A stretch of DNA of 64,000 bases from Spiroplasma kunkelii CR2-3x. Its GTDB lineage: Bacteria; Bacillota_I; Bacilli_A; Mycoplasmatales; Mycoplasmataceae. Below the pieces are notes generated by a model. That model did no database searches. It worked only from the letters and a program-made list of their open reading frames with translations, and was not told where the DNA came from. Position 1 is the stretch's first letter. Every line of letters begins with the position of its first letter. The position numbers and the translations under genes were made by a program. Shown piece by piece: positions 11,328-32,640 of the stretch. Where the stretch lies: NCBI RefSeq assembly GCF_001274875.1, contig NZ_CP010899.1, positions 124,001-188,000 of the forward strand. The letters are read 5' to 3'.

Positions 11328-12644
11328 ATGGAGTTAAAACAGAATTTGTTAGAAAATTATAAAGAAAATAAAACAATCGATACACAAAATGAAGTTAAAA
11401 ATTTATTAATTAATAGAGATAATGAGATATTTAAATTATATCAACAAGGACAAATATTACAAGGATATAAGGTTGTATCAAAATTACCAAAAACAATTCA
11501 AACAGAGTATGGAAATATTCCTATAAAAAGACGAAGATATGTTAAATATGAAGAAGAAAATAAAAAATATATAAATCGTTATCCTTTAGATGAGGAATTA
11601 GGTTTAAAAAAATATAAAAGAGTTGAAAAGAATTTAAGAGATAAATATATCTCTTTTTTAGGTGATGGAAAAAGATATAAAGATATTTTGCATACAACAG
11701 AAAATGCTAACATTAGTGAAAAAACAATATCTAATATTTTTAAGAATGCCAATTTAGAAAAAATTGACTATATTAGCAATAAAAATAACAATAAAATTAA
11801 AATTCCAAATAATGTTTTATATATTCAAATTGACGGAGCTTTTGTTCCTATGCGAGAAAATAAAAAAAGAGTTGAAAAGAAAATATTTTTTTCAACTATG
11901 CATATTGGAATTGATGAAGAAAAATCAACTAAAACAAGAAAAGTAATTAAAAATAAAAAGGGTGTTTTTCAAATGATGGATAAAACTTCTAAAAATGAAA
12001 AATCTAGTTTTAATAATTTTATTGACAAAATTTTTAAACTAATGAATACTTATGATATTAATGAAAATACTAAAATATTAGTATTAAGTGATGGTGAAAA
12101 ACAAATTAAAAAAATTTACAACGCAATAAAAATAAAATATAAAAATAACACCGTATCATATAGTTTGGATAAATTCCATTTAGTAAAAAGATTTAAGGAT
12201 TTATTTTCATATCGAAATAAAAACAAAATTAATAGACTAAAATATAAATTAGCAAAAATATATTTTTTTACTGGAAATTATGTAGTCTTATTAGATTTTT
12301 TAATTTGTCATTTACCCTATGTTATTGACAACAAAAAGAAATTTTTATTAGAAACTATTGAATTAATTAAAAATAATAAAGATGGCATTGAAAATCAAGC
12401 ATTAGAATATAATATTGGTTGTCATATGGAGGGTGATGTTTCACATTATATTAAGGCTGTTAAAGGACGAGGGGCAAAAATATATTGTAAAGAAATATTT
12501 AATAATATGTTAATTTCTTCAATGTTAAGACTTAATAGCAGAATTAACGAAGTTAAAATTGAAAAAACTAATAAAATTAAAGAAAAAATTAAATTTAATA
12601 TTTTTAATTTAAATCAAAGACAAAACCAATTTTTATTTTTATAA
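11328..12644 (+). CDS. UPF0236 / ISLre2-type transposase-like protein (Mbov_0401-like)
   Basis: Full-length 438-residue protein of the UPF0236/ISLre2 type, in mollicutes often found as an ICE-associated transposase-like protein. Residues consistent with a DDE core: Asp in YIQIDGAFV (near 166), Asp in LVLSDGEKQI (near 258), the SLDKFHLVKRF helix, and Glu/His in CHMEGDVSHYIKAVKGRG (near 370). N-terminal EYGNIPIKRRRYV is the usual entry. No TGA codons occur in this gene although neighbours use them heavily, and it is very Lys/Asn/Ile rich. I saw no clear terminal inverted repeats, so the ends of the element are undefined. Confidence 0.82.
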   Translation: MELKQNLLENYKENKTIDTQNEVKNLLINRDNEIFKLYQQGQILQGYKVVSKLPKTIQTEYGNIPIKRRRYVKYEEENKKYINRYPLDEELGLKKYKRVEKNLRDKYISFLGDGKRYKDILHTTENANISEKTISNIFKNANLEKIDYISNKNNNKIKIPNNVLYIQIDGAFVPMRENKKRVEKKIFFSTMHIGIDEEKSTKTRKVIKNKKGVFQMMDKTSKNEKSSFNNFIDKIFKLMNTYDINENTKILVLSDGEKQIKKIYNAIKIKYKNNTVSYSLDKFHLVKRFKDLFSYRNKNKINRLKYKLAKIYFFTGNYVVLLDFLICHLPYVIDNKKKFLLETIELIKNNKDGIENQALEYNIGCHMEGDVSHYIKAVKGRGAKIYCKEIFNNMLISSMLRLNSRINEVKIEKTNKIKEKIKFNIFNLNQRQNQFLFL

Positions 12645-23879: not shown

Positions 23880-24982
23880 TTAATAATTTAAAATTATCTT
23901 AATTAAACTATTCAAAAAATTAAATGGTGTCTGAAAATTTAAAGACTTATGAACTCTTTCAAAATTATAAAAATAATAATAATCATTTAATTTATTCTGT
24001 AAACTAACGACATTTAATATTTTTTCTTCAAATACAAATAATTTAGTATAATTTTGATGAAATCTTTCAATCTTACCGTTCGACTGTGGAGAACGAACGG
24101 GTGTTGTCTGATGAAAAATATTTTTATTTTTTAAAAATTGAGTAAAATTAGTTTCTTTAACATTATTTTTTTGATTATTCCGATAATTATTAATAAATTC
24201 AGAACTGTTATCAGTTCTAATCCGTGTTATTTTAACACCAAATATATTTTAAAATCACTAATTGCTTTTTTAACAGAATCAATAGCATTATCAATACTTA
24301 ATTTATCATAAACATATCCTAATGCTAATCTTGTTTTTTCATTAATAAAATCATAAACATAATACTTTTTATCAACTGGAAATTTACTTGGTACAAAATA
24401 TTTATCGTCCATCTGTAATAAACCTATTTCTTTAACTTCATATCTTAGATGTTGTTTTTTAATTTCTTTAATTTTATTTTTTATTTTTGATCATCTTTCA
24501 TCTTTTTTAAGTCAACGAAAAAATGTTTTTAAATTTTTTGGTGCTTTATTTTTTAATTCTTCTCCATGAATTCTTTTTTTTAAATTATAAAACAAAGATA
24601 AAACACCACCAGCACACTTATTACAATATTCAAAATATAAATCACAAATATTTTGACGAACATCATTACTGTATTGATAATTAATATTATTAGTAATTGC
24701 TGACTTTAATAACAATTTATTAAAATCATTATTTTTATATGCAATTAAAATTCTATTCGCTCAATAATAAAAAGTTGAAAACTTATTTTTAAAATATTTT
24801 TTAATTAAATCTTTCAACAAAAATTTATCATTATTAATATAATAATCATTACACAAATTAATATATGAAAATATTTTTTGTTTTATTTTTTTATAATATT
24901 TATTTTTATAATTTTTACTTAAAAAATTTTTTAATTTTGCTTGTAAATCAAACAAATTAAAATTATTAATAATATATTTCAT
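23880..24982 (-). pseudogene. DDE integrase-core transposase with one frameshift
   Basis: IS3/IS481-type integrase (rve) transposase. Start at 24982 after GGTGGGTG (an upstream ATG at 25048 lies beyond a terminator). N-terminal half is helical and Lys/Asn/Tyr rich; the core carries Asp in LLQMDDKYF, then after a frameshift Asp in RIRTDNSSEF and Glu in SPQSNGKIERFHQ, giving the DDE triad. The shift is at about 24236, where AAAATATATTTGG seems one T short of restoring KIYFGVK. All other sequence is clean, so the loss is recent or, less likely, a recoding site. C-terminal NFERVHKSLNFQTP is typical. No clear terminal repeats found. Confidence 0.75.
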
Positions 24983-25037
24983 TAATTTACACCCACCATC
25001 AATGTAGAATGTAGAATAAAGGATGAAGTATGACAAA

Positions 25038-25067
25038 AAACCGACCATTATTGGGTTGGTTTTTTTA
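25038..25067. terminator. Bidirectional terminator beside the transposase gene
   Basis: AAACCGACC (25038-25046) / GGTTGGTTT (25054-25062) with one G-T pair and an ATTATTG loop, A run on the left and T run on the right. It insulates the transposase gene from the phage-type control region. Confidence 0.65.
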
Positions 25068-25069
25068 TT

Positions 25070-25378
25070 TGAAAATTAACTCTAAAAATTAAATAATTGG
25101 CTCTACAAGTGTTTAATTTATAATTACATATTTTTAGGGAAGGTTCTCCAACAAGGCATTTCCGCCGGCATGAAACCATTAGAGCTGTTAACTTGTTTTT
25201 TTGCGATTTTGTAAATTAATGACTTTGATTAAGATAGACGCGTAGCGGTGCATTCATAACTATTAATTGCAAGGATAAAAATAAAATCTTGTGCGTAGAG
25301 GTTAAATAACTTTTAAGAACTGGGCAAGGATTTCTTAATTAATCTACTAGTGGGGACTTGATGAGGAGGTACTTAATA
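25070..25378 (+). other. Non-coding leader of the phage-type small-gene block
   Basis: About 300 bases with no gene. It contains islands of unusually high GC for this genome: CATTTCCGCCGGCATG (near 25160) and AGACGCGTAGCGGTGC (near 25240), and ends with GATGAGGAGGTAC. An ATG at 25361 opens only 16 codons. Could be a replication or control region or a structured RNA; I cannot fold it convincingly. Confidence 0.4.
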
Positions 25379-25431
25379 CTACAAGTAACTACAAAATGTA
25401 GAACATTGTAGTACTTTGTAGTTAATTGTAA
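25379..25431 (+). promoter_or_regulatory. Helically phased TTGTAG/CTACAA array
   Basis: Six hexamers: CTACAA at 25379 and 25389 (10 apart), then ATGTAG 25396, TTGTAG 25406, TTGTAG 25416 and TTGTAA 25426 (each exactly 10 apart). The two orientations make nested perfect inverted repeats: AACTACAAA/TTTGTAGTT and TACTACAA/TTGTAGTA. The array ends 2 bases before AAAGGAG of the first small gene, so bound protein or RNA folding would control that operon. Operator or iteron use is inference. Confidence 0.6.
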
Positions 25432-25447
25432 AAAGGAGAATTTAAAA

Positions 25448-25609
25448 ATGATTATGAAAAAGAAACTTTGTTTTAAAAAAAGATATTGAGGATATTGCTT
25501 TAAATGTAATCAAGAAAATAAAGAAGAAATTGAAAATAGATTGATTAAATACACACTTTCACACGATGAAATTACTAATGAACATTGAGCATTAGGTAAA
25601 CAAAATTAG
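25448..25609 (+). CDS. Small cysteine-containing protein, first of the phage-type block
   Basis: 53 residues, basic N-terminus MIMKKKLCFKKR, then YCFKCNQEN (a CxxC pair, possibly half a zinc site). Strong AAAGGAG at 25433 with ideal spacing; a second ATG at 25454 is less well spaced. Two TGA Trp codons. Family not recognised. It opens a run of very small, closely packed genes (25448-27287) that looks like a phage early operon. Confidence 0.6.
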
Positions 25610-27121: not shown

Positions 27122-27287
27122 TGAAATGTAAACATTGTTTAAAAATATTTGGAGTGCTTGCAATTATTAAAAAAATATCAATAGTAGTGATTATTTAAAA
27201 TTGTGTTTTCTTTGTTCTGAAATATGAATAAATATATATTTTGATGAATCATATAATATTGCATATGAAAAAATGGAGGTGGAATAA
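27121..27287 (+). pseudogene. Small CxxC protein gene with a frameshift
   Basis: Starts MKCKHCLKIFGVL, then the frame must change (near 27165-27175) to give SSDYLKLCFLCSEIW, ending KMEVE. Restored, it is about 55 residues with two CxxC pairs. It begins and ends with TAATG overlaps to its neighbours, so translation coupling was probably intact before the damage. Confidence 0.55.
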
Positions 27288-28063
27288 TGAATAATATAGT
27301 TCAAAATGTTTCTTTTCCTTTTCTTATTAAAGGTAATGATTTTAAAGAATTAAGTTTAAAAGCATTAAAAATTAAAAAATGAATTGATGAAAATGGGCCA
27401 GAATTAGCAGAATTTATTTATCGTCATCGTAATTATTATGCTACAACTGCTTATAAAGATGTGAATTTAAAAGATATTCCTAGTCTTGTAAGTAAAGTAA
27501 ATATTTTTTTTAAAGAACTATCAGAAATAATTAAACCATTTAAAGATGATTTAAATCGGATTTGTACTAATACTATTAATTTAGAAAAATGTATTGAAAA
27601 TAATAAAATTGAAATTAAAAATAATATTAATCAAGTACGCATTAAAAAACAAAATGAATTATTTAAAGAACAAGAATTAAAAAAACAAGAATTACTTGAA
27701 AAAGCAAATAGTTTAACACCAGATATGGGTCTTGATATAGACCAAATTCAATATGAACAAGTTCGTGTAATGGAACAAATTGAGCAAATTGATAAATCAT
27801 TAGAACCAAAAGAATTAAAAAAAGTTGGTATTAATTTAATAAAAGAAAAAATATTAATAAAAGATATTGAAATACTGGGAATTGATAATGATTTTTTAGA
27901 AAATGCAAATAAATTAGAACTAATTAATTTAATTAAGACTTATTTAGTTATTGATGAAAAAATTGTTAAAAATGAAATTAAAGCACAATGAGATAGTAAT
28001 GTAAATACTAATACTATTGGTATTAAAGGTATTAAATTCAAAATAAATAAAGGAGTAAAATAA
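27287..28063 (+). CDS. Coiled-coil protein upstream of recT (possibly DUF1351-like)
   Basis: 258 residues, cytosolic and almost entirely helical, with a Lys/Glu/Gln-rich coiled coil at residues 90-185. The layout (LSLKALKIKKWIDENGPEL, then FKELSEIIKPFKDDLNRIC) and its place immediately before recT recall the DUF1351 protein that precedes recT in many Firmicutes phages; the match is by position and general look only. GGAGGTGG site upstream. TGA Trp in KKWIDE and AQWDSN. The recT start follows after one base. Confidence 0.6.
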
Positions 28064-28064
28064 A

Positions 28065-28923
28065 ATGACAAATGAATTACAACAATATATTAAAGGTGCA
28101 ATTATTAAATATGAATTAAAAGTTAATGATAAATATTTAAAAGAAAATATTTTAGCACTTGAAGAATTAAAAGTGAAAAATGTACAAAGTTATATGCAAT
28201 TAGTTAATACTACTGATAATACTAAAATTACAGCATTAGGTATTATTAAATTAAGTAATAAAGGGTTAATTTTTGGAAAAGATTTTAATATTATTCCATT
28301 TAAAAATAAATTAACTACTGTTATTGATAGTAAAGTTTATTGTAAAAGAATTGAAGAAGCAGGATATAGCCCAAGAAAAGCAATTATTTTTAAATGTGAG
28401 AAATTTGAATGAGATAGTTTAAATTAATGTCCTAAAATAAATGAAATTAATTTTAATGCAAATACGAGTGATTATAATGAAATAATTGGTGCTTATGCTT
28501 TTGCAAAAGATAAAAATGGAAATTATCAAGGTATTTTATTAAGAAAAGCAGATATTGAACGATTAAAAAAAAGTAGTCCAAGTGGAAATAGTGAATATTC
28601 ACCTTGAAATAAATGACCAAAAAAAATGGTTGAAGCAAAATTATATCGTAAATTATCATTAGAAATGGGAATTGATATTTCTGATATTGATTTAGATGAA
28701 AAAGAAATTAAAAAAGATGCTAATTTTGAATATATTTCATTTAAAGATATTAATGTCGCCAAAAATAAAGGGCAAATTAGCGATGAACCATTATCAAATA
28801 ATATAAATTACCCCATCTTATACAGAAATAGCAGACACAAATGATAATGTCGTTAAAGAAGATGATATCTCAAATTTAACACCAGTAATTAATAATAATG
28901 ATGAGGATTGAGCAACTTGATAA
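28065..28923 (+). pseudogene. recT: RecT-family single-strand annealing protein, broken
   Basis: Phage recombinase that anneals single strands. N-terminal helices, then LTTVIDSKVYCKRIEEAG, GAYAFAKDKNG, LLRKADIERLKKSSPSG, SPWNKWPKKMVEAKLYRKL, the RecT core order. Damage: TAA at 28425-28427 (SLN-stop-CPK, Gln likely) and a frameshift near 28802, after which the tail TPSYTEIADTND and NNNDEDWATW reads in another frame to TAA at 28921. Restored length about 286 residues, normal. Sits directly before a RuvC-like gene, as in phage recombination modules. Confidence 0.8.
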
Positions 28924-29179
28924 TATGTATTGATCCATCAGGAACTGGTACTACTGCTATTGTTATATATAAAAATAATAAAGTTATTAGAAAAGAACAA
29001 TATTATAGTAAAGATTGAAAAAAAATTTTGAATTTGTAGATGAATACATAGATAAGTATTTATATTATTATTTTGTAAAAAATAAAGGTGAAATTTTTTC
29101 AGAAGTATTAAATATTGAAAATTGCTTATATACCTCTGCTAATAGTTCAAAAGACAGAGATGATTTATTACGATTAGTT
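28917..29179 (+). pseudogene. RuvC-like resolvase fragment fused to the methyltransferase
   Basis: From TTG 28917, overlapping recT's end: ICIDPSGTGTTAIVIYKNN, a RuvC-fold first strand with catalytic-type Asp, KDWKK, then after a one-base slip in AAAAAAAATTTT (near 29007) FEFVDEYIDKYLYYYF and SANSSKDRDDLLRLV. About 88 residues remain; phage RuvC-like enzymes are near 150. The frame then runs straight into the methyltransferase start, so an internal deletion probably joined the two genes. Alternative: an unrelated RNase H-fold protein. Confidence 0.5.
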
Positions 29180-29935: not shown

Positions 29936-30094
29936 ATGAAAAGAAAATTAATTCGTAATATTAATGTTTACTTAAATGAAAAACAAGAAAAAGTTTGAAA
30001 TGAATTACCTGAATTATATACCAACTCACAACGAATAGAACATCTTATTAATTTTTATATAAAACACAATAAAGGAAATAATAAAAATGAATAA
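29936..30094 (+). CDS. Small ribbon-helix-helix-like protein
   Basis: 52 residues: MKRKLIRNINVYLNEKQEKVWNELPE. A basic beta-strand-like start followed by two helices fits an Arc/CopG-type DNA-binding fold, though too short to be sure. AAAGGGGAT site precedes it. TGA is Trp. Its end overlaps the next gene by 8 bases, indicating coupling. Confidence 0.55.
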
Positions 30095-31792: not shown

Positions 31793-32640
31793 CTTTCCTA
31801 TTTCCTTTCTCTTTTTTAGGTTTTAAATTCTTTTTTAAAATATCAATATCAAATAACTCCAATCGTTCTTTAACACTTAATTTTGTAATTTCCGACCAAT
31901 AATATTCTTTTTTATTAACAATTTCATCATTTTTTAAATAACGAAAAAATTTTAATCATTGACTATCATATTTATTGGCAAATTAAAGTGGAATAATTAT
32001 TTTAAAAAACCGAATTCCTAATCCAACATCCGACTTATCTTTTACTCGTTTATCTTCTACTGCTCGTTCTACTGATTTTGTTTTTCAAGTTTCATAATCC
32101 GTTATATCTTGAAAAATTCCAATCCGCATAATAAAGAAAAGGTTAAAAAAATAAATCCTTTTTAGCAACAGGTTTTTTCAATGAAATTGGAATAATAATT
32201 CCACTTGCTAATTGCCGAATATTATTTCAAATCATACCCTCACGCTGAGCAGTAAACAATGCACGATTACCAAAATGTCTCGCTAAAACAATTCACGGTA
32301 TTTTACCACTATGAACTTTTTTCTCATCGTGAGAACTAGTTCCATCAATATACAAATAACTTTCATCAAATAAAATAACATTATCATCTGGGGGAACTAG
32401 TTTTGTTCGGTCAGTAAAATCTAAATTCTTAAATGTTAAAATTTTAACTTTATCATCTTCTAACGGATAATTACTATAAATTTCATCTGTCAATAATTTT
32501 ATAGTTTGCGATAAATAAGTTAAAAGTAATGTTTTACCAGTTCCTAATTTACCAATAATTACCGACAACGGATTATCTCAAATAAATTGAACTAACCGAA
32601 AAGCGTTTAACTGATAAAAAATATTTTTTTACAATCATCA
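31789..32640 (-). pseudogene. Zot-type (pI-like) phage assembly ATPase, broken
   Basis: Inner-membrane morphogenesis ATPase of filamentous phages. MIVKKN-type start at about 32640, frameshift in an A run, then FIWDNPLSVIIGKLGTGKTLLL (split here: Walker A GKLGTGKT), NVILFDESYLYID (Walker B), WIVLARHFGN, and FTAQREGMIWNNI. A frameshift near 32150 is followed by ITDYETWKTKSVERAVEDKR, TAA at about 31986 (PL-stop-FANKYD, Gln likely) and a basic tail ending KGNRKDD. Restored length about 280 residues. Confidence 0.7.

Follow-up and report, generated by a model that had tools for sequence, protein, structure and literature searches.

The repeat array at positions 25379–25431 of the analysed window (64,000 nucleotides of the Spiroplasma kunkelii CR2-3x genome) forms the 3′-terminal part of a noncoding leader some 340 nt long, designated type A, which lies ahead of the decayed early operon of a MaM-2019a-like phage. 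The same array is shared with a second leader, designated type B, which is a pseudoknotted RNA family with strong covariation. We propose that the array serves as an exchangeable hairpin module at the 3′ end of a phage leader RNA that acts in cis and tunes the expression of the early genes, an interpretation in which our belief and doubt are evenly balanced. What stands out is not the phasing of the repeats but the two phage leaders, type B being a new RNA family supported by covariation. The preliminary description of this DNA had singled out the array itself and overlooked that it merely closes a conserved and repeated leader.

Sequence and spacing of the repeat array

The array contains the hexamers CTACAA at 25379 and 25389, ATGTAG at 25396, TTGTAG at 25406 and 25416, and TTGTAA at 25426. 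All six had been listed in the preliminary description; they are present letter for letter and lie far beyond chance. With up to three mismatches allowed, the complete six-site pattern occurs once in the 64-kb window and in none of 100 dinucleotide shuffles of it. Single TTGTAG sites are slightly rarer in the window than expected (23 found, 31.6 expected), so the array is not explained by base composition. The hexamers had also been described as spaced exactly 10 bp apart, which would place all of them on one face of the helix. The 10-bp spacing holds inside each arm. The step from 25389 to 25396, which joins the two arms, is 7 bp, and the single-face reading was therefore rejected: with steps of 10, 7, 10, 10 and 10 bp, not every site stands at a whole number of helical turns, as the sites of a phased operator would. 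The nested inverted repeats were confirmed. CTACA-AAA-TGTAG lies inside TACTACAA...TTGTAGTA on a common dyad at 25395. The repeats allow pairing in two other registers as well, each shifted by 10, which brings the number of registers to three. The last position of the array, 25431, stands just ahead of AAAAGGAG, and the first open reading frame starts at 25448, in agreement with the preliminary description. Within the array, the minus strand bears a promoter-like site (TTTACA-16-TACAAT, 25405–25432, 10/12 match). It could give rise to an antisense RNA; such sites are frequent by chance in this DNA.

The type A leader and the left end of the prophage remnant

The type A leader is a repeated element. 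Thirteen nearly full copies, the window copy included, and several fragments are found in the 1.51-Mb genome that contains the window (G000). The nearly full copies match the window with 91–100% identity across 370 nt or more. In the relatives the identity to the window is 94% (G006), 91% (G002) and 86–87% (G007), and the Spiroplasma citri plasmid CP047444.1 is 90.5% identical. The long alignment between G000 and G007 (84% over 436 columns) comprises only the leader and the array and ends at both edges, and the long flanks of the leader do not align between the two genomes. The leader contains no plus-strand open reading frame of at least 40 amino acids. At gathering scores no Rfam family matched anywhere in the window, and under relaxed thresholds the type A leader gave only sub-gathering matches, none below an E value of 0.25. 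The type A sequences are too alike for a covariation test.

The features of the leader and of the adjoining operon are collected in Table 1. The terminator-like stem near the left end varies in sequence between the copies with its pairing kept, as read from the sequences; a simple scan did not return this hairpin. The promoter-like site is present in the copies that begin at the phage end and is missing from copies such as L004, which carry the tail of an upstream open reading frame. Judging from this site, transcription is likely to start near 25104, some 275 nt ahead of the array.

Several minor features of the type A loci were observed. The left end TGTAGAATAAAGGATGAAGTA followed by the terminator-like hairpin is seen at 25010–25068 of the window and in L001, L002, L003, L013, L021, L029, L030 and L031. 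Inside the leader, at 25150–25203, AACAAG can pair with CTTGTT right before a T-run and may form a weak attenuator; G-U changes in the relatives keep this pairing, as judged by eye. One type A leader is split (L014 and L018; G000:C1:1345195-1345768), its 3′ third being inverted and displaced by a few hundred bases. Two type A leaders with a shortened array (L044:6468-6778 and 12020-12330) lie on the S. citri plasmid pSciBLHMB-7. The minus-strand frame at 24227–25048, which adjoins the left end of the prophage, shows a weak match to an integrase core (Pfam E 0.075).

Table 1. Features of the leader, the repeat array and the early operon (window coordinates).
Feature	Position	Strand	Details
Probable left end of prophage remnant	25010..25037	+	TGTAGAATAAAGGATGAAGTATGAC...; start common to 8 type A copies, all outer flanks differ
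Intrinsic-terminator-like hairpin	25038..25068	+	ACCGACC..GGTTGGT, then T7
Likely leader promoter	25069..25097	+	TTGAAA-17-AATAAT, 10/12 consensus match
Type A noncoding leader	25078..25432	+	copies in own genome, relatives and plasmid; probably transcribed from ~25104
Candidate RNA hairpin, register 1	25377..25413	+	TACTACAA..TTGTAGTA with inner CTACA/TGTAG
Repeat array, six hexamers (two inverted, four direct)	25379..25431	+	steps 10/7/10/10/10 bp
Candidate RNA hairpin, register 3	25380..25430	+	TACAAGTAACTACAAA / TTTGTAGTTAATTGTA, 15/16 paired; register folded in type B arrays
Ribosome-binding site of first early gene	25433..25439	+	AAGGAGA
First early gene, 53 aa, CxxC motif	25448..25609	+	no Pfam family; weak PHROG matches
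Early-operon marker gene, MaM h1715 homologue	27287..28063	+	51% identical
Decayed RecT and RuvC genes	28482..29179	+	tblastn pieces with breaks between
Small basic protein, 52 aa (29936 product)	29936..30094	+	ribbon-helix-helix-like by eye only

The early operon

The view that the array heads a phage-type operon is borne out by the homology of the downstream genes to the early genes of the Spiroplasma phage MaM-2019a. The product of the first early gene matches no Pfam family, and its PHROG matches are weak. Across the genus, a leader of type A or type B lies within 6 kb upstream of 75 of the 86 early-operon markers, on the same strand. The RecT and RuvC genes are broken in the window, and the locus is thus a prophage remnant. 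For the 29936 product, homologues with 61–70% identity are encoded by MaM phages that have no array; a single-sequence structure prediction returned one long helix and was uninformative. Further downstream, the minus strand at 32143–32568 encodes a P-loop protein, presumably of plectrovirus origin. It has a strong PHROG match (E 1.7e-71) to a family listed there with unknown function.

The type B leader is a structured RNA family

Type B leaders occupy the same locus, and some copies carry the core of the array. No similarity is detectable between the two leader types, and HMMs connect them through the array alone. The possibility that type A is a divergent type B was not supported by the HMMs, and the best match of the covariance model R1 to a type A leader had an E value of 0.21. 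The type B covariance model matches 108 copies in 8 of the 14 genomes of the genus, with at least 20 copies in some genomes; a search of 148 genomes of the order, under stricter filters, found none outside the genus.

The structure of type B was derived from a core alignment of 20 distinct leaders. It consists of 31 base pairs in five helices, one of which crosses two others and thereby forms a pseudoknot. In the core, 97.9% of the cells are paired, a figure that is flattered because the structure was drawn after viewing the same sequences. The safer measure is the pairs changed on both sides in comparison with slid controls: 10 of the 31 pairs (31 cells) show such changes and the slid controls at most three; none of 500 shuffles matched this result. 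Two additional helices outside the core agree with the fold. RNAalifold gave a weak result on the full-length alignments because the pseudoknot is not representable in it. Five type B loci were searched against Rfam with relaxed thresholds and yielded only sub-gathering matches at chance level (best E value, type A leader included, 0.25). A tRNA-like fold was considered for type B, and ARAGORN found none in the five loci. No description of the leader RNA was found in a collection of 5.39 million open-access papers. The finding points to a structured RNA family, abundant and so far undescribed, that sits at the control point of the phages filling these Spiroplasma genomes.

As read from the sequences, a small open reading frame may end upstream of either leader type, with the same tail in both cases. 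In one phage genome this frame, of 79 amino acids (L045:454-693), lies directly upstream of the type B RNA. Its product appears zinc-ribbon-like by eye (C-x4-C ... C-x2-H) and matches no family; the tail of the frame is found ahead of some type A copies as well.

Distribution and variation of the array

The 25-nt core of the array has 35 matches in six Spiroplasma genomes at up to three mismatches, and the reversed control has none. Comparison with the leader coordinates places all 35 at leader 3′ ends, 21 in type A and 14 in type B. A 23-nt core was not found in the viral contigs of IMG/VR. A loose TTGTAG pattern, searched for in 85,000 genomes, returned mostly chance matches in unrelated bacteria. 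The spacers of the array are conserved as well as the hexamers. The spacing, whose conservation in related loci the preliminary description had put forward as a check, is kept in type A across species, though some relatives have lost whole 10-bp units. In many array copies of S. citri and S. phoeniceum one 10-bp unit is missing. A clean duplication of the unit is seen in type A of G007, where AACATTGTAG stands twice, and in four type B leaders of G000 the array is reduced around CTACAAAGTTGTAG. Many type B leaders have no array, and a different hairpin or an unpaired linker takes the same site. The array is therefore not essential, a point against the proposed hairpin module.

Pairing beyond the hexamers

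Ten array contexts were folded and compared with versions in which the hexamers were fixed and all other letters shuffled. Pairing beyond that of the hexamers was obtained for two near-identical type B contexts of G007 (p 0.030 and 0.013) and for a type B context of G011 (p 0.014), because the flanks lengthen the stem there. All three carry the full array, and in two of them, L081 and L110, the stem is closed by GGCG/CGCC. The window copy forms a hairpin no better than the hexamers alone would (p 0.57), and the contexts of G007b, S. citri, L123, L090 and L120 likewise show no excess pairing; that of G007a is borderline (0.052). With ten contexts tested and the p values uncorrected, the three low ones are suggestive rather than strong. 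They suggest that the array sits at the top of a longer RNA hairpin in some type B contexts. The window copy is neutral in this respect, and the RNA reading hence rests on the position of the array, the conserved spacers and type B.

Proposed role of the array and alternative explanations

We propose that in MaM-2019a-like Spiroplasma phages a transcribed noncoding leader precedes the early (recombination) operon and that the array would serve as the 3′-terminal stem-loop module of this leader. At the RNA level, the inverted and direct repeats of the window copy could fold into a long hairpin, with as many as three registers 10 nt apart. The array hairpin would be exchangeable, like the differing hairpins and linkers at the same site in other phages. 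The leader RNA would most likely tune the early genes by antitermination or attenuation, through transcript stability or by binding a phage or host protein. Spiroplasma phages shape the genomes of symbionts and plant pathogens, and the leader may bear on the silencing and induction of many sibling prophages. With a defined leader, a covariance model and a repeat hairpin available, the question of prophage control becomes directly testable.

The preliminary description had named a regulatory RNA hairpin, cooperative repressor binding and an iteron origin as possible roles. The hairpin is the best supported of the three, mainly by the relatives, in which the flanks of some type B contexts extend it. 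The main rival is an operator, with the array acting as DNA: a small repressor encoded by the phage, such as a ribbon-helix-helix protein, would bind the hexamers cooperatively and block transcription of the early operon, either as a roadblock or at an unrecognised promoter. We regard such an operator as doubtful, though worth weighing. It would agree with the regular 10-bp spacing inside each arm, which type A preserves from species to species, with the change of unit number by whole 10-bp steps, with a hairpin potential of the window copy that the hexamers account for wholly, and with the overlap of the array and the reverse-strand promoter-like site. The array lies inside leaders only (35/35) and some 275 bp past the likely start, which argues against an operator. 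So do the 7-bp step, which spoils single-face phasing, the spacers, as conserved as the hexamers themselves, and the RNA hairpin extended by flanks in some type B contexts. The 29936 product had been put forward as a candidate binder and looks ribbon-helix-helix-like by eye; the MaM phages that encode its homologues and have no such array speak against this role.

The array may also be a neutral relic with no function of its own, produced by recombination or slippage of a 10-bp unit and spread among mosaic phages along with the early operon's 5′ end. The variable number of units, the many type B leaders that lack the array and the clean duplication in G007 type A fit this origin; we still consider it unlikely, given a 25-mer core that is near-identical, spacers included, on two unrelated leader types in six genomes. 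An iteron-type replication origin or replication-control site appears very unlikely. The repeats do lie in a long noncoding region before recombination genes, and no replication initiator was recognised that would mark the origin. Set against this, the three leaders checked contained no DnaA box at up to one mismatch, no iteron-binding Rep was found among the recognised early genes, and the sequenced relatives MaM NSRO-P1 and P2 have no array. With neither a Rep gene nor a DnaA box found, the origin was rejected.

Comparison with known systems

GOLLD and ROOL are large pseudoknotted RNAs of phages and prophages, of unknown function (Nature 2025, PMC12286853). Type B resembles them in being large, pseudoknotted and located in phages and prophages; it differs in being shorter (about 450 nt) and in lying upstream of early genes, not near tRNA islands. 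The Rfam models of GOLLD and ROOL gave no match in the window, the type A leader or the five type B loci.

The layout of the array leader recalls other phage control regions. The immunity of phage P4 and the c4 immunity of phage P1 depend on an untranslated leader RNA of the early or replication operon, in which short complementary repeats could pair in alternative ways. The array leader is likewise untranslated, and its repeats could pair alternatively. In contrast to these phages, no separate antisense locus was found here, all 35 arrays lying inside leaders. It is conceivable, if decidedly improbable, that two unrelated large leader RNAs with a swappable repeat hairpin control the early operons of citri-clade phages, and that the repeats, by pairing alternatively within one leader transcript or between those of the many sibling prophages, set a P4-like RNA immunity in which the 3′ hairpins would be the immunity types. 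The put antitermination RNA of phage HK022, about 65 nt with two hairpins, also acts in cis ahead of phage early genes; the likeness to the structured leader proposed here is one of layout, and no sequence link is apparent. The ribbon-helix-helix repressors MetJ, omega and Arc bind operator arrays of short sites about one helical turn apart. The arms of the present array have short sites at a similar distance; unlike those operators, it lies inside a putative leader and has a 7-bp junction.

The closest relatives are the MaM-2019a genomes OL689226, OL689227 and OL689230, which carry the same early operon and the type B leader RNA at the same locus. The covariance model detects type B in all three, the copy in OL689230 being cut off by the end of the record. 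These genomes differ from the window in having type B and not type A, and the 10-bp array is missing. The type B RNA is unannotated in their records (L045:794-1279, L046:547-947 and L047:19542-19715), and in OL689226 hypothetical coding sequences (984-1163 and 1212-1328) are drawn over its 3′ part.
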